From: Candidatus Babeliales bacterium
Lineage (GTDB): Bacteria > Babelota > Babeliae > Babelales > Vermiphilaceae
Direction of reading: 5' to 3'
Length of the DNA: 64,000 bases
Assembly: GCA_020049835.1 (NCBI GenBank)
Contig: JAGVLK010000007.1
Location: forward strand, 1 to 64,000
This document shows, piece after piece, positions 19,552-36,788 of this stretch. The notes below the pieces were generated by a model, which was not told where the DNA came from, did not search any database, and was given only the letters and a program-made list of their open reading frames with translations. Within the stretch, counting starts at the first letter, position 1; each line of letters starts with the position of its first letter. Made by a program: the position numbers and the translations under genes.

Positions 19552-19720
19552 GATCCTTCGACAGGCTCAGGATGATTGCAATATTATTTTTTGATTAAAG
19601 TAATATATCGCAAACATGTAACTCTTAGAAAATTATACCTATCGCGATTAAAATTTTTTTAATCATCCTGAGCATGCCTGCCCGACATAGCCTTGGCGAC
19701 GTCTGGGTCGAAGGAGCATC
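19552..19720. repeat. palindromic element, family 2, copy A, with nested module
   Basis: The left end (19552-19577) reads GATCCTTCGACAGGCTCAGG, then ATGATT. The right end (from 19661) begins AATCATCCTGAGC and finishes GGTCGAAGGAGCATC, the inverted form. Between CCTGAGC and GGTCGAAGG the right arm carries an extra GC-rich module (19676-19709) that is absent from copy B at 36615-36788. The element fills the space between two convergent genes and abuts the gltX stop codon (19721-19723), so it could serve as their terminator. Confidence 0.8.
19676..19709. repeat. nested GC-rich module inside the family 2 element
   Basis: The sequence GCCTGCCCGACATAGCCTTG, then GCGACGTCTGGGTC. It is more GC-rich than the AT-rich interior of the element, is absent from copy B, and is similar to the reverse complement of 31-65. 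This suggests insertion of one mobile or recombinogenic sequence into another. Confidence 0.5.
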
Positions 19721-21712: not shown

Positions 21713-24640
21713 GTGCGGGCTATGCTACGAGTTTCTTCTTATGGGTTCTTAACATTCGTTATGTTTGCAGTGCGGCTGTTTGCAGCCGATGGTATGCCAC
21801 ATCACCAAATTGTATATCATACGGGTCATACAGAACTTGGGGATATACAAAAAAAGCTTGCCACCCTGATAACGGAACCATTATCACTTGTTGCCGTTAC
21901 CTATGCTGCTGACGTTGCTTTCTCGCGCGATGAGTTTATCTACCTGATCGGTTTTGATGAAGGTGATACGGTTACGCATGATCAACTTTATAAACTTTTC
22001 TTTTATTTGATTAAAAAGCGTAAGTTTGAACGAATAACCGTCTCGTTGTATCCCCATGAAAAGGGATATGCTCTGCATGTTGATTTAGAAGCATTTTGGA
22101 CCTTCAATGGACTTAAGTTTAAAGGTATTTTTGTTGGCAAAGAGCATGTAAAGCAGTATTACCTCATGGAATATCAAGATTATTTTGATATGCGCAAGCA
22201 TGCTGATTCGGTTGCCAAAATTCAAGAATCATTCAAAGCGGATGGATTTTTCCAAGCTACTATTCAAGAAAAATTTATGTACCATGAAGCGACAAAATCG
22301 GTAGATGTGCAGCTTGAATTGCATAAAGGATCGCGCTTCTATATCACTGATGTACAGGTGGTAGTTGAGCATCCATCGGTAAGCGTGGAAGATAAAGATT
22401 CGTTAGCCCATTCATTGCAATGCCATTTGGCGCAACGCTTATTAAAAAACTATTATAATAAAGAGCAGATCGCGCACGAAACGGGCGAACTCAAGCAGCT
22501 GCTTATGCACAAGGGATATGTGCATGTAGATGTTATTCTTGCCGAATCGGTAAATTATGCGGCAAAAACGACGCAGCTTATATTTACGGTGCTGTTGCAA
22601 GCAAAAAAACAGTTCCTGTTTGTGGGTAATCATTTTTTTTCACGCGATCAATTATTGGAGCATATTACTGCATTTGGACGTGCTGCCAGCTTGTTGCCGG
22701 CATCTATCTTATCTGAAGAACTTATGAAGTTGTATCATGATAAGGGTTTTTGGCAAGCTTCAATTGCTATTCAAGATGATGCATCAACCTGTCAATTTAC
22801 CATTATCGAAGGTCTGCGTATTTCCATTGATGAGATACAATTACAATATATTGATCCATTTCAAGAAGAAGGGTTAATTAAAAAATTCTTTTATCCCTTG
22901 CTCAAAAAACGATTTTATGAGGCAACGGTACAAAATGAATGCATAGAGCGCTGTTTGGCATATATGGTGCAAGAGGGGTTTTGGCAGGCTCGCGTCCATG
23001 CAGTTGTATTTGAGGCATTAGAAAAACCGCAGGCGCATCAAATGATTATAACATTCGAACTCGGTCAGCAGCGGCGTTTGAAAGCAATCTCAATTGGCCA
23101 GATTCCTGAAATGCAAACTCAAGGTCCATTTAAACGGTTTGATCAACTGGGTGTGTCCATACCGTTTGATCCGCATATTATCGAGGAACAGCGATTATGG
23201 CTCAAGCATTATTTTAAAAAACAGGGATATCATAACATGCGAGTCACACCTGAACTACAGGGTGATTGTGACAATTTGACCATGTCCTGGCAAACTGCAT
23301 GCGATATTAAACAGGATGTACAAAAATTGGTTTTGTTAGGAAGTAGCACATTTCCATTTGCCTATGTAAAACGTGAGCTTGAATATGCGGTAGGGGATGC
23401 TTGGCATCGGGACGCGTTGCGCCATGCAATTAGCCGGTTAAAAAAAATCGAGGTGTTTGATGCGGTGCATCTTATTCCGGATAAAATCTCTGCAGATGAT
23501 CCGGAATCGGTGTTATTGCTTAAGCTGCAACAGGATGAACCGTATGAAATTAGAATGCGTACCGGTTTTGGCATTCAGCATATTACCAAATCATTGTCCA
23601 TTGGTGGGCTGACGTATCGTATTGGTGGTAGCTTTATTTACAAAAATCCTACCAATAGTGGTGATCAGTTGCGTTTGGATGCCGATTGTACGCGTGCGAT
23701 ACGTCTGGTTAATGCCCAATATCGTCGGCCTTGGCTTTTTGGTTTGCCAATTAACGGTATGTTCCAAGGATATACGAATCGATTTGAATATCCCGGGTTT
23801 ATCGGTAGTCAATTAAACTTGTATACCGTTATTCAGCAGGGATTTTTGATTAACTTTAATACGGTATATAACAAGATCGATGCGGCAATGAGTACGGGCA
23901 TTGAGCTGATTGATACCTTTATTGATGAATCTACCCCGGAACAGGCACTGTTTGCACAGCAAGTAGCACGGGCCATAAACTTTCGGCCGGATTTGCTGGA
24001 TAAGAATATCCCCTTTTTCCTGTTGCAACCCACCTGCATTTTATACTGTGTTGATAATACCGTTAATCCAACGCGTGGCTCATTTTCCATCTTTTCTGCC
24101 AAAGCAATGTTTCCGTTATCAAAGCTAGAAAGCAATAACTTTTTTATACGCCTACTAGCTGAGCAATCATTTTTTATTCCTATCTGGCCGTTTGTTGTAG
24201 CATTGCGTATTCGCGTTGGGCATATCTTTCATCCCAAGTTTAGTACTATTGTTCCTATTGAACGATTTTATTTAGGGGGCGCGAACTCGATTCGCAGCTA
24301 TGAAACTGATCAATGTCCGCCACTGGGGAGAGTTGATCATGAAGGCAAAATTCTCTATGTGCCACAAGGGGGCAGGTCGCTTGCAAATGTAAACCTTGAG
24401 CTGCGCTTTCCTTTGTATAAACAATTGGGCGGGGTCGTGTTCGGGGATGCCGGTGCATTGAGTACTAACCGGCTCGCCGATATTAGAGTTCATGACATGC
24501 TTTCAGGTATCGGTTTCGGCTTGCGTTACAACACGCCTATTGGGCCGCTGCGATTTGATTTTGCATGGCGAGGTCGCAAGCATGATGGGGTTGGCAGGCC
24601 ATATGCATGGTTCTTGTCGTTTGGTAATGCATTTATATAG
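21713..24640 (+). CDS. bamA: outer membrane protein assembly factor, BamA/Omp85 family
   Basis: Omp85 proteins insert beta-barrels into the outer membrane. The 975-residue protein has a signal peptide (about 1-25), then a run of POTRA-type domains to about residue 600, then a C-terminal barrel of about 370 residues. The lid-lock motif of the barrel is GGANSIRSYE, so the usual R-G-F/Y is R861-S862-Y863. The C-terminus is the barrel strand WFLSFGNAFI. The start is either the GTG at 21713 or the ATG at 21722. A BamA role is more likely than TamA because the window has many barrel proteins and no second Omp85. No Bam lipoproteins are nearby. Confidence 0.87.
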   Translation: MRAMLRVSSYGFLTFVMFAVRLFAADGMPHHQIVYHTGHTELGDIQKKLATLITEPLSLVAVTYAADVAFSRDEFIYLIGFDEGDTVTHDQLYKLFFYLIKKRKFERITVSLYPHEKGYALHVDLEAFWTFNGLKFKGIFVGKEHVKQYYLMEYQDYFDMRKHADSVAKIQESFKADGFFQATIQEKFMYHEATKSVDVQLELHKGSRFYITDVQVVVEHPSVSVEDKDSLAHSLQCHLAQRLLKNYYNKEQIAHETGELKQLLMHKGYVHVDVILAESVNYAAKTTQLIFTVLLQAKKQFLFVGNHFFSRDQLLEHITAFGRAASLLPASILSEELMKLYHDKGFWQASIAIQDDASTCQFTIIEGLRISIDEIQLQYIDPFQEEGLIKKFFYPLLKKRFYEATVQNECIERCLAYMVQEGFWQARVHAVVFEALEKPQAHQMIITFELGQQRRLKAISIGQIPEMQTQGPFKRFDQLGVSIPFDPHIIEEQRLWLKHYFKKQGYHNMRVTPELQGDCDNLTMSWQTACDIKQDVQKLVLLGSSTFPFAYVKRELEYAVGDAWHRDALRHAISRLKKIEVFDAVHLIPDKISADDPESVLLLKLQQDEPYEIRMRTGFGIQHITKSLSIGGLTYRIGGSFIYKNPTNSGDQLRLDADCTRAIRLVNAQYRRPWLFGLPINGMFQGYTNRFEYPGFIGSQLNLYTVIQQGFLINFNTVYNKIDAAMSTGIELIDTFIDESTPEQALFAQQVARAINFRPDLLDKNIPFFLLQPTCILYCVDNTVNPTRGSFSIFSAKAMFPLSKLESNNFFIRLLAEQSFFIPIWPFVVALRIRVGHIFHPKFSTIVPIERFYLGGANSIRSYETDQCPPLGRVDHEGKILYVPQGGRSLANVNLELRFPLYKQLGGVVFGDAGALSTNRLADIRVHDMLSGIGFGLRYNTPIGPLRFDFAWRGRKHDGVGRPYAWFLSFGNAFI

Positions 24641-29369: not shown

Positions 29370-29398
29370 TTGACATTACAAACGAAACGCACTATGAC
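29370..29398 (+). promoter_or_regulatory. promoter for the giant secreted protein gene
   Basis: TTGACA (29370-29375), a 17-base spacer and TATGAC (29393-29398) lie about 95 bases upstream of the start at 29495. The -35 is perfect, the spacing ideal and the -10 is 4/6. Another TTGACA at 29309 has no matching -10. Confidence 0.5.
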
Positions 29399-29494: not shown

Positions 29495-32400
29495 ATGAGA
29501 AAAAGTTTTGTAGCTAAGAGCATACCATGCATTAGCTTTCTTCTTCTATTAAGTAGCACGCTGCTACATGCTGGATCTTGCGGGCCGACAATCGGTTGGG
29601 GCCCCGTAGTTGCCGCCGATGTATTTGACCAAAATATCAATTTGAACTCGCCGACTATTGATATTATCGGTGGTGTTGCCGTGCATGCAGTAAGTTGCGA
29701 TATCACTATTAATATGAATGTTGCCGGGCCGATCACGATCGAAGGTGATCCGGCTGCGGGTAATTCTCGTCTTTACTTGAATCCAGATGCTGGTCGTACT
29801 ATTACGGTTAATGTGACCGATGATCTTACGTTCCAAGGTTCAGCATTCGGTGCAGTCGGTGAGCTTGATTTGCTCGTAACAGTAACTGGTGCCGGCGAAG
29901 TAATATTCATTCTTGATGCTGGTAATAATGTTGTATTGCAACGTAATGCGAGTGGTAGCAGTGTCGGTGGTGCGGTGCAAATGTATCGTCAAGCTGATCC
30001 TACCGTAATGTTTGCAGACATGCTGTTTACAACCAGTCAGACGACACCGGCTATTTCTTCATTAGTTATTGGTACGGATTCATTATTAAGTTATCTTGCT
30101 ACCGATACAACACAGACAGCTGAAATTATTTTTGAACCGGGTGATGGTTCTATTCAGCCGGAAATTCAGATTCTTATGGCTGACAGAGCTGCTGTGCTTG
30201 TACGTGGTAATTTGCTTACTCCATCTGCCGATAAATATACAATCGCAGATATTACTCCATCTGTTGTACCGGGCGGTGATTCTGCATTCCGCCTCACCGT
30301 TGCTACAAACAATATAGCAAATCCTGCTGGATTGCGTGTACAAAACGAAAATAACACCATAGGCCAATTCTTATGGGATCCTTGGTGCATAGAGGGTGAA
30401 CGTGGAGATATTCATCTGTTTAATGGTATCCAGTACGGCTTTATTGTAGGCTCAACGGGTGAGTTGCGTATTGATCCATATACATTTGTCGATTATATAG
30501 CATTGTCATTACCGACATGTCTGGTATCTACAATTGATTGTATTGGAACAATTGCGACTACTTCTGTTGCAAAACGACGCAATCCTTCTGCCCTCTTTAC
30601 TGACAGCTTTGTATTCTCAGATCAACCTGCGCCGGTTATTAATATTATGGCTCATGCGGGATTATATCTTCGTTCAGGGGTAGGCAATAACGGTCAGGTG
30701 CAACCGGGCTTTATTGTTGATCCGCTGAACCGCACTCCAGGTGCAGGTATTCCGGTAATGGATATTGAAGGTCAGTTATTTGTGCGTGGCGCAAACATTC
30801 CGGGTACAGCTGAGCAATGTTTTATTGATGAGCAACAATTAAGTAAGATTGAAGTGCTCTCTTGGGAAGTGCAGCCGTTTGGCGGTCCATTATTTACCGA
30901 TTACACAGTAGAAGATCCGGTAAATAATCCATTCATTTTCCCGAGCCGTACATTTACAACTGTACCTTTGCCCGATCCATGTGATCCGACTGCAGATCTA
31001 TTCTACTATGCTGCATATAACAAGGGTGCTATTTTTAATAACGGGCGTGCTGATCTTATTACTGTTTCATTAGATCATACAGACGAGATTCATCTTGTTG
31101 TTGAAGATAATGATGTAAGTTCTGAACCTACCTATATTGGCGGTGAAACTTGGCACATACCATGCGAATCTTGTGCAGTATGTATTGCTCGTCCACTATT
31201 TGCATTCTTTAATTCACGCTTTAACATACATACAAATGTTGCACTTACCGGCGTTGATTTATTGATTGAGGTTGGTGGCCCAAGTGGCGATACTGATGGG
31301 TTTAATTTCTGTCAGGATAACATATCCAAATTTGTATTCTACCAAAATGGTAAAATACTGGATAATGGTACCGGCCGCTCAATGATCTTAGGAACCTTCC
31401 CTGGCTCGACTGCTTGCGATGGTTGCACCGTAATTAGCAAAGATACACATCTTAATGTTATGCAAGATAATGTGTGTGATGGCGGTGCGCTTGTTGATGA
31501 GCTTATTCTTACAACAACGGCAAATACGGCGTTGTTAATACCTGGTATTCCTTCCGGTGATCTTTCACAACAATATGCAATTCAAACTATTTACTTAGGT
31601 AATAATAGTAACATTTCGATCGGTGCTGAAAGTGTTAGTTGCACAGAGAGCATGACGCAAGATGTACGTTTTGCAAGCTATCCAAACCCACAAACAACGT
31701 TTGCATTTAATCCGCTTATTTTCCCAACATTGCTTATCAACAGCAACCTGTTCTCATTTGAATCGCGTGGCGGAGCAGCAGGTCTACCAGAAACATCAAA
31801 TGTAACCGGTCAAGGCGGTATATTTGTTGATGCTAATGGTATCTTTACTATTGGCGGTAGTCGTTTAACGGCAGATCAAATATGTGTTCAATGCCTCTTC
31901 CGCGCCAATATGGGTGTAATGGTAACAGCAAGCTGTAACGGATTTATAGACTTGCCGGCAAACCGCGTTCTCTTTGATCCACGCGTGGGCATTGCATTCT
32001 GGCAACTCAATATGAACAACTCGTCAGAACAGGTAATTGTGCAACGTGGTCAAGAGATTTCGGATTACACCTTAAACTGGTTGTTCTTAATCAAAGACTA
32101 TGAAGTCTTTATGCCATACTATTTAACTGACTGTTATAGTCCATGCTTCTGCCCACCGGTGACAAGTATGAACGTATCAGCAATTCCGACGGTTGAAGGT
32201 ACGGTACAACAGTTGCAAATTAAAGGCTCACGCCTAGGCGATCCTGCACACGTTAAAATACGTGGTGGTACCGTTGGTGAGCTCGTTATGCTTTCAGGTT
32301 TCAATTCAGCTGAAGCGCCGGTTGCAGTTGTAGTGTTGGAAGATCAAGGTCAAATTGGTCTTGGTTCTACACACCGCACAGTAGATTCACTTGAAGCATC

Positions 32401-33811
32401 AATTCAACTTGGTGTTAACGGTGTGAACGTTATCCTCAATGGTGCTGAAGGTCAGATAAACTTGAACGAAGACGTCGTGGTTAATAATATCTGTGCGTTC
32501 TTACCTGGACCGGATATTACATTGACCGGTGTTCTTCGTATCTCTTCTGAGTGTTGCAGAACATTACGCATTACCAAAGATGGTATACTTGATTTAAGCG
32601 GATTTGGTGGCGGACAGTCCATTGAATTTGCCGGTAATGTTCGTGTTGTGTTTGAACCGGGTTCAAAAGTAATTCTTGCCAACAATACAACATTGCGTTG
32701 GACAGAGAACTCAACAGCAGAGTTTGAGCCAATTGTATTTACCGATGTATTTAGCCCTAATTCATTAACATCAACTGATACATCACGTGTACATTTTGTT
32801 GGTGAAGGTTCGCTTGAATTCGTTGATTGTTCTGCAGCTTCATTACCGCGTGATGCGTTTGTGGGTGTAGAAAACGATCTCAGCTGTGGCATATTAACGA
32901 CAGCTGTTACTGTACGTTTAGAAGACAGTGCGAAGTTCCAAATTGGTGACCCTGCATGTAGAACACCGGGTGGTGCATTCCAGGTTGGTAATACAACTAA
33001 TCTTGAAGAGCGTGGTAGCGTAAGCTTCTCACTTATCGTAGATGGCCCTGAAGCATCATTTGAAATAGGCCAACAAGGATTCTTGGGTCTTGGTGTTGGC
33101 GTAGTGAATAAAGGTCGCCTTGCACCAGATTTCTGGCTTGTAGCTCCTACATTCAACGTAAATGAAGTGAATCTGTTCTTGAATAACGGCAGATTTGCAC
33201 ATACGCAGTTGTATGCAGGTTCTGATGAGCGTGCATCATTGATTGCTTTCTGCAACAGTGTTGGTGGTGCTGTACAACCGTTTAATTATACTATTGCACC
33301 AATATTTGATACGACTGATGGTACCTTGCTTTCTAACATGAGCTTGCTTGGTGGTGGCAATATAATTGCGTGCCCTCCAACAATAGGTATCTTTGCGCCA
33401 ATCGTTGGCATTATTAACGGTACAGTGAACTCAGGTACAGCAGGTGAGTATGAAGTTGGCATATTAGCGTCAACTCCAATAATAGCAACATTTGCGGCTG
33501 GTCCACTGTCTGCAAGTTCAATATATGCATTATTACGTGTTCAGGACATTATTGCAGATTTACCGGCAAATGGTCGTGGCGTTGGTGCTCCAAGTGATTT
33601 GCGTAATCAAATTCGTGTTGGTTATGTAGATACAGCGGGCGCTGGTGGAGATGGCTTCATTGGGCGTGCAGAAATAGAAAAAGTAGTGGGTAAATCAGCG
33701 CAAACTTCGGTGCAAGAGCATACACTAGAAATAGGTGTTGTAGCTATTGTGTTAGAAAATAGCGGTGGTGCTCCACGTGCAATTGTGGACGTTAATGAAA
33801 TAGGCCAATAA
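29495..33811 (+). CDS. giant secreted Cys-rich protein, 1438 aa, probable beta-solenoid
   Basis: The largest gene of the window. A signal peptide (about 1-26, ending LLHAG) is followed by about 1400 residues of short beta strands with Gly, Asn and Asp turns, as in beta-helical passengers, and roughly 30 cysteines scattered along it, including SECCRTLR and CESCAVC. Examples of strand-rich segments are ITVNVTDDLTFQG and VFEPGSKVILANN. There is no C-terminal barrel and no aromatic beta-signal. An RGD at residues 303-305 is noted but may be chance. The family is unknown to me. It is followed by an intergenic hairpin and then the barrel gene, so it may be a surface protein displayed with that barrel. 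The ATG follows AAAGGATG. Promoter at 29370-29398. Confidence 0.75.
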   Translation: MRKSFVAKSIPCISFLLLLSSTLLHAGSCGPTIGWGPVVAADVFDQNINLNSPTIDIIGGVAVHAVSCDITINMNVAGPITIEGDPAAGNSRLYLNPDAGRTITVNVTDDLTFQGSAFGAVGELDLLVTVTGAGEVIFILDAGNNVVLQRNASGSSVGGAVQMYRQADPTVMFADMLFTTSQTTPAISSLVIGTDSLLSYLATDTTQTAEIIFEPGDGSIQPEIQILMADRAAVLVRGNLLTPSADKYTIADITPSVVPGGDSAFRLTVATNNIANPAGLRVQNENNTIGQFLWDPWCIEGERGDIHLFNGIQYGFIVGSTGELRIDPYTFVDYIALSLPTCLVSTIDCIGTIATTSVAKRRNPSALFTDSFVFSDQPAPVINIMAHAGLYLRSGVGNNGQVQPGFIVDPLNRTPGAGIPVMDIEGQLFVRGANIPGTAEQCFIDEQQLSKIEVLSWEVQPFGGPLFTDYTVEDPVNNPFIFPSRTFTTVPLPDPCDPTADLFYYAAYNKGAIFNNGRADLITVSLDHTDEIHLVVEDNDVSSEPTYIGGETWHIPCESCAVCIARPLFAFFNSRFNIHTNVALTGVDLLIEVGGPSGDTDGFNFCQDNISKFVFYQNGKILDNGTGRSMILGTFPGSTACDGCTVISKDTHLNVMQDNVCDGGALVDELILTTTANTALLIPGIPSGDLSQQYAIQTIYLGNNSNISIGAESVSCTESMTQDVRFASYPNPQTTFAFNPLIFPTLLINSNLFSFESRGGAAGLPETSNVTGQGGIFVDANGIFTIGGSRLTADQICVQCLFRANMGVMVTASCNGFIDLPANRVLFDPRVGIAFWQLNMNNSSEQVIVQRGQEISDYTLNWLFLIKDYEVFMPYYLTDCYSPCFCPPVTSMNVSAIPTVEGTVQQLQIKGSRLGDPAHVKIRGGTVGELVMLSGFNSAEAPVAVVVLEDQGQIGLGSTHRTVDSLEASIQLGVNGVNVILNGAEGQINLNEDVVVNNICAFLPGPDITLTGVLRISSECCRTLRITKDGILDLSGFGGGQSIEFAGNVRVVFEPGSKVILANNTTLRWTENSTAEFEPIVFTDVFSPNSLTSTDTSRVHFVGEGSLEFVDCSAASLPRDAFVGVENDLSCGILTTAVTVRLEDSAKFQIGDPACRTPGGAFQVGNTTNLEERGSVSFSLIVDGPEASFEIGQQGFLGLGVGVVNKGRLAPDFWLVAPTFNVNEVNLFLNNGRFAHTQLYAGSDERASLIAFCNSVGGAVQPFNYTIAPIFDTTDGTLLSNMSLLGGGNIIACPPTIGIFAPIVGIINGTVNSGTAGEYEVGILASTPIIATFAAGPLSASSIYALLRVQDIIADLPANGRGVGAPSDLRNQIRVGYVDTAGAGGDGFIGRAEIEKVVGKSAQTSVQEHTLEIGVVAIVLENSGGAPRAIVDVNEIGQ

Positions 33812-33819
33812 TACGAAAA

Positions 33820-33855
33820 CATGGTGGAGCGGACATACGGTATGTTCGCTCCATG
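33820..33855 (+). promoter_or_regulatory. intercistronic hairpin after the giant protein gene
   Basis: TGGAGCGGACATA pairs with TATGTTCGCTCCA across a CGG loop, and CATGG..CCATG may extend the stem. No U run follows, so it is less likely to be a strong terminator and more likely an RNA processing or attenuation element. The gap holds no gene. Confidence 0.5.
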
Positions 33856-33901
33856 CACCAACTGATATGAACTATATCAAAATTACCAAAAAAGGAGAAC
33901 A

Positions 33902-35800
33902 ATGAAAAAAGGTCTGCTCAGCATAGTGAGCCTGTTAAGTTTAACAGCTGGCCCACTCTCTGCTACAACAAGTTTCTTCCGTACGCCGTTGAGCTTTATA
34001 GAAAGCCGTTGGGGTACTGTCCATTATCCATTACCACCATTAGATAATTGTGGTTGGCAGGTAGATACGATGGGTCTTGTGTACCAACGTTCTGCATGCG
34101 ATGCCTTTGGTCGTGATCCACTGTGTGGAACAAATAATTGTAAAAACATATGTGATGATGGTAATGATACATCAACAACCCGTAAAACAGTACCACTTTC
34201 ACAACTTTGGTTTGGTAAAGCGGATTTTTCAGCGCGTGACATAGGCTTTGTATCATCGGAAGGTAACCCATTTTTAGCGTTTACTAATTTTAGTCCACGA
34301 TTTCGTTACTATGAAAACGGTGTAGCATTAGCACTTAATGCCTATCGTTTGGTTGGATGCGATAAATCATGGTTTGTTGGTGCGCGTGCAGCATTGCCGA
34401 TTTGCAGCATTCAAGTAAATGAAGTTGCGAGTGTGAAGCTTTCAACAATAACTCCAGATTTCGAAGATACCATAGTGCCAATTCAACAGCAGTTACACGG
34501 AACGAGTCCAGGTACAGGTTCAGTTGATTCGCGAGATGTAAAAGCATATCGGCTTGATTTTTTGAGCACACTAGAAATGCCTGATGGTACACCTATGGTA
34601 GAATATGGTACCGTAACAGGTGATATTACTGGTAATACACGAATTGCTGGCCAAGATATAACTAATAATGTGACTCAAACTATTGGTGGTGATACTAATG
34701 ATCGTCGTGCACCTGTATATGTATATAAACAATCAAGTGGCATAGTTCCATTGCCACCAAAAGGTTTAACTGTTGCATCGTTAACCGGCAATGTACCTCC
34801 GACTGGTCAAAATCTTATGATATCTTCTGATGCCAACGTGTTGTTGGCTGCAGATGGTTCTGGTCCGGTTGATGGTCAATGGGCAGCGTTTGGTGGATTT
34901 ACACCTACTCCTCCAGGAGGACAGCCTAATTATCAAGCTGATTATGCAGGTAATTTAGGAACCAATGTAGCTGCACAGAAACAATTATTTGTTGTGCCGG
35001 TTGGTACAAGCTCAGGCGGTACAACATTTGAGCCAATAGGTCTTGTTGTGCAAAATACTATCGACTATGTAATTCAAAAACTACAATTGGCAAGCACAGT
35101 TGCGCTCGATTTCTTTGCAGATAAAGGATATAGTTTATCCAGTTGCACAAGTGGTGCCGGCGATACGTTTATTGATTTTTATGGTGGTAAATGGTGCGAT
35201 TGTTGGTATGGCGATCTTCTTGTTGGGTTGCGTTTACCGACAGGTACTGATTCAGATAATCAAAAAAATCTGTATCAGCAGATGACGGGTAACAACGGTC
35301 ACTTTGGGTTAAAATTTGGTGTTGAAGGCGGTTATAAAGCATGTGACTGGATGGGTATTAAAGGTGATGTGTTCTGGCGCCATAACTTTAGAGCAACTGA
35401 AAAACGCGCAGCGGCATTTGTAGGTTCAACGGTACACAACTTTGGTCCATGCATTGACGCACAAGTTAAATGGAATGATCTCCAGGCACATGTAGATGTC
35501 ACTGTCTTTTTACCAAAATGTCCAAATACCGGTTGGGATGTTGGATATGAGTTTTACTATCGCACAAAAGATGATCTGTGCTATTGCGCTACTCAGGCCT
35601 ATAATCTAGCAGGTGTATTGCAAACATTAGATCCAAATCTTGCTGCAGCAGATTCTAAACTATTGTCTCATAAAGTACGGTTTGAAGTGTTCAGCCAATG
35701 GGAATGTGTTGAAGCATTCTTGGGTGCATCATACATCTTTGCCGGTGATAATGTCATGAAAGAAAGAGAATGGCATATTGGCATGAAGGCGTATTTCTAG
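33902..35800 (+). CDS. Cys-rich outer-membrane beta-barrel protein, GNNGH-type, 632 aa
   Basis: A signal peptide (MKKGLLSIVSLLSLTAGPLSA) precedes a 610-residue mature protein with about 19 cysteines. Cys-rich runs include DPLCGTNNCKNICDDGND and KWCDCWYGD. The motif GNNGHFGLKFG (463-473) and the closing strand pair, ending EREWHIGMKAYF, match the smaller barrel at 16553-17947. A Gly/Thr/Pro-rich region in the middle (about 230-380) looks like an exposed loop or an insertion. The C-terminal aromatic residue fits insertion by BamA. The ATG follows AAAAGGAGA. It would anchor or transport surface material, perhaps the giant protein upstream. No function is proven. Confidence 0.78.
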   Translation: MKKGLLSIVSLLSLTAGPLSATTSFFRTPLSFIESRWGTVHYPLPPLDNCGWQVDTMGLVYQRSACDAFGRDPLCGTNNCKNICDDGNDTSTTRKTVPLSQLWFGKADFSARDIGFVSSEGNPFLAFTNFSPRFRYYENGVALALNAYRLVGCDKSWFVGARAALPICSIQVNEVASVKLSTITPDFEDTIVPIQQQLHGTSPGTGSVDSRDVKAYRLDFLSTLEMPDGTPMVEYGTVTGDITGNTRIAGQDITNNVTQTIGGDTNDRRAPVYVYKQSSGIVPLPPKGLTVASLTGNVPPTGQNLMISSDANVLLAADGSGPVDGQWAAFGGFTPTPPGGQPNYQADYAGNLGTNVAAQKQLFVVPVGTSSGGTTFEPIGLVVQNTIDYVIQKLQLASTVALDFFADKGYSLSSCTSGAGDTFIDFYGGKWCDCWYGDLLVGLRLPTGTDSDNQKNLYQQMTGNNGHFGLKFGVEGGYKACDWMGIKGDVFWRHNFRATEKRAAAFVGSTVHNFGPCIDAQVKWNDLQAHVDVTVFLPKCPNTGWDVGYEFYYRTKDDLCYCATQAYNLAGVLQTLDPNLAAADSKLLSHKVRFEVFSQWECVEAFLGASYIFAGDNVMKEREWHIGMKAYF

Positions 35801-35827
35801 ACAATAGTTTTAATCCAAAGGAAGAGC

Positions 35828-36499
35828 ATGAAAACTAACTTAAAATGTTTCCCGAGCGAACGTTACATAGCGTTGGTTGCGGTAGCATTATTGGTGAATG
35901 TCACAATGCATGCCGTGAATGTCAAACATATGTCAATTGCCCGCACAACACGCTCAGCAAATACGGCTATGAATGCTTCATTGCAGATGCGTAACATGCA
36001 GCCTGATTCGGCATACCTTTTGCACATGAGTCATAGAAATATAGAACGGGAATTGGGTATATCGCTTTCTGTTGAACGAGTTGTTAGTATTTTGCATGCC
36101 ATTGCATGTGATGTGAGAATACAATCGTTAGCAGATGATTGTTTGTATTCTATTATGCCTTCTAGTCGACGTTCAGCAAAGGATATATGTTCTGCGCAAG
36201 ATATTTTAGATGAAATTGCACATGTATGCGAATTAGAAGGTGCTACGATTGTTCGTGCACCGCGCCCGGAAGGATCTAATGAACCAAGCCTTGTATCGCC
36301 ATTTGATTCTTCACTCTTGGCTGACATTGCAGCATGTTGTTGTAATTTAACTAATACAGTTGGGCCAAACGATAAAGGTATTTGCGATGCCTCCAGATGG
36401 AGCACGGTTGATGGCATTCAAAATACTAATCAATCTGTTATTGGATGGCTAAAAACGATTATGATAGAATTGCGCGGTCTCTGCCAATCTATGCCATAA
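35828..36499 (+). CDS. secreted hypothetical protein, 223 aa
   Basis: No family recognised. The N-terminus has a hydrophobic stretch (YIALVAVALLVNVTMHAVN), a likely signal peptide after a longer basic n-region. The mature part is largely helical and contains RNIERELGISLSVERVVSIL and a row of cysteines (ACCCN). It ends with a helix containing LRGLC. The ATG follows AAAGGAAG, 27 bases after the barrel stop, so it probably belongs to the same operon as the giant protein and the barrel. A strong terminator follows at 36525. Confidence 0.68.
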   Translation: MKTNLKCFPSERYIALVAVALLVNVTMHAVNVKHMSIARTTRSANTAMNASLQMRNMQPDSAYLLHMSHRNIERELGISLSVERVVSILHAIACDVRIQSLADDCLYSIMPSSRRSAKDICSAQDILDEIAHVCELEGATIVRAPRPEGSNEPSLVSPFDSSLLADIAACCCNLTNTVGPNDKGICDASRWSTVDGIQNTNQSVIGWLKTIMIELRGLCQSMP

Positions 36500-36524
36500 T
36501 ACGTTAGTGCATAGCACAATTAAA

Positions 36525-36559
36525 AGAGGGCGTGAGCATAGAGCTTATGCCCTCTTTTT
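36525..36559 (+). terminator. rho-independent terminator of the giant protein operon
   Basis: AGAGGGCGTGAGC pairs with GCTTATGCCCTCT across a short loop, followed by TTTTT. The stem is long and the U run follows directly. Confidence 0.85.
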
Positions 36560-36614: not shown

Positions 36615-36788
36615 GATCCTTCGACTAGCTCAGGATGATTATTGAAAAAATAGCATGGATTTGTTAGGCAATCATTCTAATTGGGCAATTATGCTAAAGT
36701 GATGAATATTTTTTAAAACATGTTGATTGTGCAAAAAACTATTAATCATCCTGAAAAACTATTAATCATCCTGAGCTGGTCGAAGGAT
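36615..36788. repeat. palindromic element, family 2, copy B
   Basis: The left arm GATCCTTCGACTAGCTCAGG, then ATGATT, is mirrored by the right arm AATCATCCTGAGCTGGTCGA, then AGGAT. The ends match those of copy A at 19552-19720 with few mismatches. The right side has a tandem 20-base duplication (36734-36753 and 36754-36773), and the GC-rich module of copy A is absent. The interior is AT-rich and non-coding. Confidence 0.8.

Follow-up and report, generated by a model that had tools for sequence, protein, structure and literature searches.

The giant exported protein and the outer-membrane barrel described here form one conserved two-gene module of the Dependentiae, tiny bacteria living inside single-celled hosts. 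The C-terminal core of the giant is found again, in the same genome of 1.44 Mb, in a second locus where it is joined to an esterase and accompanied by a related barrel from the same subfamily, and the length of one external barrel loop, L2, follows the presence of such a partner. We therefore lean towards a surface module in which the partner binds L2 through its core, the barrel thereby keeping an interchangeable passenger at the cell surface. The window referred to below is the whole stretch of DNA analyzed, 64,000 nucleotides of a Candidatus Babeliales bacterium.

Organization of the locus

The original prediction of three same-strand reading frames coding for 1438, 632 and 223 amino acids was borne out by the gene calls, and the features on which the following discussion draws are listed here with the evidence for each.

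29370..29398, + strand: promoter-like site TTGACA-17 nt-TATGAC upstream of the giant (weak)
29495..33811, + strand: giant exported protein, 1438 aa, predicted parallel beta-helix and putative surface passenger (ORF call, model, fold comparison)
32402..32734, + strand: core half A of the giant, residues ~970-1080 (homology; limits approximate)
32750..33769, + strand: core half B of the giant, residues ~1086-1425 (homology to the C-terminal region of the esterase proteins)
33824..33854, + strand: hairpin between giant and barrel, without a T-run (-21 kcal/mol, z -4.65)
33902..35800, + strand: predicted outer-membrane 12-strand barrel, 632 aa, COG4313/FapF-type fold, C-terminal Phe (model, sequence)
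34424..35140, + strand: L2, external loop between barrel strands 3 and 4, residues 175-413, proposed docking site (model, alignment)
35237..35290, + strand: PTG and MTG motifs in the loop between barrel strands 5 and 6, residues 446-463 (alignment; cf. PMC5557850, PMC4493636)
35828..36499, + strand: small secreted protein of 223 aa, belonging as a short member to a repeat-rich and variable family of secreted proteins (ORF call, homology)
36002..36226, + strand: B5 domain (phenylalanyl-tRNA synthetase beta) in the small protein, residues 59-133 (Pfam, PheT comparison)
36522..36558, + strand: rho-independent terminator (hairpin of -25.7 kcal/mol, z -6.3, then T)

The giant and the barrel are separated by 90 nt and the barrel and the small protein by 27 nt, with a spermidine/putrescine-type ABC operon (potABCD) upstream of the locus and metG downstream. 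The strong terminator expected after the locus was recovered as the hairpin at 36522-36558 with its T-run; it was found by hairpin folding with z-scores and missed by the consensus scan used for promoters. The promoter expected before the giant fared less well: the TTGACA-17-TATGAC site at 29370 is present as a weak candidate, but the scan, which returned 24 sites against 25.4 in shuffled sequences and thus did no better than chance, did not include it. The stable hairpin at 33824-33854 could tune the ratio of giant and barrel. A short repeat of the CTTCGAC..GCTCAGGATGA type occurs in inverted copies at 36619-36785, in the gap between the small protein and metG, and at 19566-19672, in another intergenic region.

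The giant-barrel pair across the phylum

Among 101 genomes of the phylum, 51 carry both a core-bearing partner and a partner-type barrel, five the partner only, two the barrel only and 43 neither (Fisher p 3e-20, uncorrected for shared ancestry). These counts, like those on cysteines and VKOR below, rest on hand-copied genome lists. The giant profile matches 56/101 genomes, including two (G060 and G061) which carry only the esterase-fused partner, and 53/101 have a partner-type barrel at E <1e-29. Of the five giant-only matches, four are fragments, their open frames spanning 131-996 aa; in the last genome (G047) a giant of 1385 aa is encoded, and a barrel fragment of 56 aa lies on a separate contig. 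In G004, one of the two genomes with a barrel alone, the locus breaks off at a contig end. Because 43 of the 101 genomes are without it, the module is not essential throughout the phylum.

A scan of named genomes with two peptide patterns, derived from an alignment of 20 giants and blind to distant relatives, yielded 24 loci, every one of which comes under the title Dependentiae, TM6, Babeliales, Babeliaceae or plain "bacterium". Giant and barrel are intact, adjacent and on one strand in 20 of these loci, the remaining four being contig-cut or broken. The order is giant, then barrel, with gaps of 14-108 nt (21 loci), commonly between potABCD and metG. The earlier suggestion that giant and barrel belong together is confirmed by this co-occurrence and adjacency.

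Predicted folds of the two proteins

Residues 240-1438 of the giant were modeled as an all-beta, non-barrel structure (pLDDT 83), in agreement with the short beta-strand repeats noted at the outset. The model matches mainly beta-helix proteins, among them autotransporter passengers, TpsA proteins, pectate lyases and tailspikes (Foldseek, VIA), at moderate scores: the best Foldseek E is 0.014, with none below 0.001, and VIA Z values are 8-12. The giant is thus likely to belong to the beta-helix class, and the structure prediction that had been proposed as a check for a beta-solenoid fits at this moderate level. The giant matches no Pfam family and gives no meaningful NCBIfam match, searches of solved structures with giant sequences returned 0 matches, and across the 20 giants scanned with Pfam neither an autotransporter domain nor an enzyme family was matched; the statement that the giant has no barrel of its own holds on both sequence and model. 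In one genome (G018, contig C38, 306290-311093, partly L049:113-2124), tandem ORFs of 215-238 aa, homologous to the N-terminal domain of the giant, lie just upstream of it.

The barrel, modeled as a single chain with AlphaFold (pLDDT 73.9, pTM 0.68), is predicted to have 12 strands, joined by short turns on the periplasmic side and by long loops on the outside, of which L2 is the longest; the strand order was taken from the secondary-structure listing of the model, not computed from coordinates. By VIA, it aligns with the COG4313 channel 4rl8 at Z 24.6 (rmsd 2.3, 262/268 residues) and with FapF 5o65 at Z 22.8 (254/276 residues), the next group following at 18.6; Foldseek ranks FapF first, VIA second. 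In the loop between strands 5 and 6, the second motif varies between MTG, TTG, PTG and xLG. Only ~30 residues (~23-52) lie between the signal peptide and strand 1, with no helix predicted there, and an ExRTPL motif is conserved near the N-terminus, the part that in COG4313 channels folds into the barrel lumen and where the pLDDT of the model is low. The barrel of the window does not match the PF13557 profile, and one of 33 barrels does so at a non-significant E of 0.018; NCBIfam gave nothing meaningful for the barrel, and barrel sequences produced only chance matches to solved structures, mostly designed propellers.

Omp85 proteins for barrel assembly are encoded in the genome. One Omp85-family protein with POTRA domains (975 aa) lies at 21713-24640 of the window, upstream of the pot operon, and a second Omp85 ORF (827 aa) on contig C17; one of the two may be a TamA-like helper. 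In some families two tandem barrels follow one giant (L068, L069 and contig C6 of G095).

An exchanged passenger: the esterase locus

The C-terminal core of the giant is also found in 11 loci in which it is fused to an esterase, one of them (L056, contig C6) in the genome studied here. In this second type of locus, a secreted ORF of 122-156 aa that corresponds by homology to half A of the giant's core is followed by a barrel of the subfamily to which the giant's barrel belongs, and then by a protein of 650-872 aa, the C-terminal part of which is homologous to core half B. Ten of the 11 core-esterase proteins have a barrel of this subfamily as their neighbor; in the exception (G060), the barrel is on another contig than the esterase and not between the split-core genes. 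The small core-A ORF was detected by profile in 7/12 second-locus stretches and was not detectable in the other five (L059, L060, L061, L122 and L123); L121 is partial. The N-terminal part of the second-locus protein is a PF00756 esterase in all 11 proteins scanned with Pfam, and the catalytic Ser (GxSMG), Asp and His are invariant in 11/11, an intact triad from which the esterase looks active.

The esterase-type cores form one clade (0.993), as do 9/11 esterase-type barrels (0.908), those of G054 and G055 being long-branched and placed elsewhere in the barrel tree. In a further genome (G050), a protein of 1190 aa carries the core behind an N-terminus without a Pfam match and is perhaps a third passenger. 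In G043, the gene after the barrel (L053:8456-9835) matches the right-handed beta-helix family PF13229 (Pfam, E 1.5e-10).

Loop L2 and the presence of a partner

L2 of the window barrel has 239 residues and is modeled with confidence only in part (pLDDT of 41-88 by block); from its predicted position between strands 3 and 4, it should face outwards. In all 32 barrels adjoining a giant, an esterase or another core protein, L2 measures 193-268 aa, and in seven further esterase-type barrels, that of G060 among them, 188-208 aa. It is 39-121 aa long in 12/12 partnerless barrels, a sample hand-picked from weak matches of the barrel profile search. All these lengths rest on the alignment and one AlphaFold model. 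The partnerless Dependentiae barrels have the C-terminal part and the PTG region in common with the partner-type barrels. G013 encodes no core-bearing protein, and its potD is directly followed by a barrel with an L2 of 32 aa. This barrel lies within the giant-linked clade (0.968), has a short L2 and has no giant beside it; therefore, giant and L2 were lost together, in a single event. It is mainly because the length of L2 follows the partner, the joint loss in G013 included, that the docking site is placed on this loop.

Proposed mechanism and alternative explanations

In the mechanism we favor, the giant and the barrel, both with N-terminal signal-like sequences as read from the protein sequence, would be exported by the Sec pathway, and the barrel would be inserted into the outer membrane by the Omp85 machinery. 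The conserved C-terminal core of the partner would then dock on the barrel via L2, keeping the passenger outside, which the latter may reach either through the barrel or with the help of Bam/Tam. At the main locus, the passenger would be the long beta-helix of the giant, probably contacting the protist host or its membranes; at the second, duplicated locus, the core is split over two proteins flanking a sister barrel, the second of which bears the active-looking esterase. The barrel had originally been proposed as a possible anchor or exporter of the giant, and it is indeed the likely anchor or port. A more specific form of the idea is a two-partner display peculiar to the phylum, in which an L2-expanded barrel recognizes a core that can be fused to a beta-helix or an esterase, or split around the barrel gene; we regard this as quite possible, if somewhat short of probable.

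The barrel could also be an uptake channel topped by the giant or the esterase, which would capture substrates and cleave them before they are imported, in the manner of SusD-type proteins on SusC. The presence of an esterase among the passengers, the pectate-lyase-like beta-helix matches of the giant and the position of the locus after the potABCD uptake operon would suit such a complex, as would the closest fold, that of a COG4313 channel, from a family which the available part of its description implicates in the uptake of hydrophobic molecules (PMC4493636). However, a potD relative is found in 19/19 genomes picked for an absent or damaged module, and the linkage to pot may therefore be positional only; as the giant also lacks an enzyme-family match, an uptake complex seems unlikely. 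Still less likely is a dedicated FapF-like exporter, whose pore would pass the giant and the esterase to the outside, with the core serving as secretion signal and the product possibly being released. Only ~30 residues precede strand 1 of the barrel, because of which there is no room for a periplasmic coiled coil of the FapF type. The rank of FapF in the fold searches (top by Foldseek, second by VIA) speaks for an exporter, as do the two PTG-type motifs in the loop between strands 5 and 6, also described for FapF in the text available (PMC5557850), but PTG is reported in COG4313 uptake channels too (PMC4493636, in part), and the partnerless Dependentiae barrels have the same C-terminal part and PTG region. 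A further point in favor of an exporter is the common C-terminal core on differing passengers, which resembles the cargo of type 11 secretion (T11SS) as outlined in excerpts of PMC12282271.

A disulfide-linked envelope as in chlamydiae, in which cysteines would cross-link giant, barrel and small protein and stiffen the envelope, is in our opinion very improbable. The roughly 30 cysteines attributed to the giant were counted as exactly 30, with 16 in the barrel and 10 in the small protein, and the genome encodes a disulfide-forming enzyme of the VKOR type, found in 15/44 genomes searched (this one included). Giants of VKOR-positive genomes are richer in cysteine (median 2.26% versus 0.79%, p 0.029; 23 giants of the 56 giant-positive genomes, with G028, which lay outside the VKOR search, left out and the giant of G012 represented by one of two ORFs), but the effect vanishes within the family of the window (p 0.70, 14 genomes), and DsbA was found in one of the 44 genomes and not in this one. 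The cysteine content of the giant (2.1%) is unexceptional, other ORFs of more than 400 aa in the window reaching 2.5-3.9%. Cysteine richness was not upheld as a property of the module: giants carry 4-63 cysteines, their content does not co-vary with that of the barrel (rho 0.16, p 0.49), and of the 30 cysteines only one is conserved in 18 or more of the 20 giants compared. A disulfide network as the main principle was consequently set aside as weak on cysteine counts, co-variation and VKOR/DsbA presence; disulfides are plausibly a local stabilization in this species and not a principle of the module. The chlamydial envelope reading was itself ruled out by the phylum, Dependentiae, and by family scans that matched no chlamydial envelope family, so that the comparison stands as an analogy only.

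The small secreted protein

The relatives of the small protein that follow other barrels are longer, repeat-containing secreted proteins that have a C-terminal motif in common. In G001, a member of the family follows potD with neither giant nor barrel, and a weak match in G017 occupies the same place after potD, probably also without them. The third gene was accordingly rejected as part of the giant-barrel unit, and of the single surface unit of three genes originally envisaged, the giant-barrel pair stands, while the small protein is separate and variable. Its middle part is recognized by Pfam (E 1.2e-6) as the B5 domain of phenylalanyl-tRNA synthetase beta. This part is 49% identical to PheT of the same genome and 30-41% to five others, and looks like a domain captured by a small exported protein.

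Significance and comparison with known systems

The contact of Dependentiae with their protist hosts and their entry into them are almost unexplained, and the module is a concrete candidate for a part in them. For one Dependentiae isolate, the available part of the published account mentions only surface antigens without assigned function and states that LPS biosynthesis genes were not found (PMC6561590). In the open-access literature, no paper on the giant-barrel module was found, nor one joining Dependentiae with an autotransporter; the module is a widespread surface candidate of this phylum without a curated family. The esterase version indicates that the cargo has been swapped in nature and suggests a modular mounting of proteins on the cell surface. 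It offers parts open to testing, with a proposed docking tag in the core, its receptor in L2 and a host-facing protein in the giant.

Among known systems, the Cys-rich envelope proteins and Pmps of chlamydiae are similar in being Cys-rich exported proteins of an intracellular bacterium, but OmcB, MOMP and Pmp belong to another phylum and their family profiles are not matched, and the cysteine content of the module is not conserved. The COG4313 channel (4rl8) has the same 12-strand fold and a conserved PTG, given as Pro119-Thr120-Gly121 in the part of the description available (PMC4493636), whereas the barrel of the module has an L2 of 239 residues, a passenger gene beside it and no significant PF13557 match. 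The functional-amyloid exporter FapF, a trimer in the membrane, is close in fold (Z 22.8) and in the two PTG-type motifs of the loop between strands 5 and 6 (PMC5557850, in part), but it has a periplasmic trimeric coiled coil before the barrel, which the module barrel is without, and its partner is an amyloid subunit, whereas the partner in the module is either large and rich in beta structure or carries an esterase. In type 11 secretion, according to the accessible portion of PMC12282271, a barrel gene likewise lies beside partner genes with a common C-terminal domain and differing N-termini; however, no T11SS or cargo-barrel family was matched by Pfam in 33 barrels and 20 giants, and the T11SS cargo domain is an 8-strand barrel, unlike the core of the module, which is predicted to be beta-helix-like. 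In type V secretion, finally, the barrel is fused to its passenger or a POTRA-barrel is paired with a TPS-domain passenger; here, barrel and passenger are separate proteins, and no autotransporter, TPS or POTRA domain was matched in the 33 barrels and 20 giants, but the two systems are alike in combining a long beta-helix-like passenger with a 12-strand barrel.
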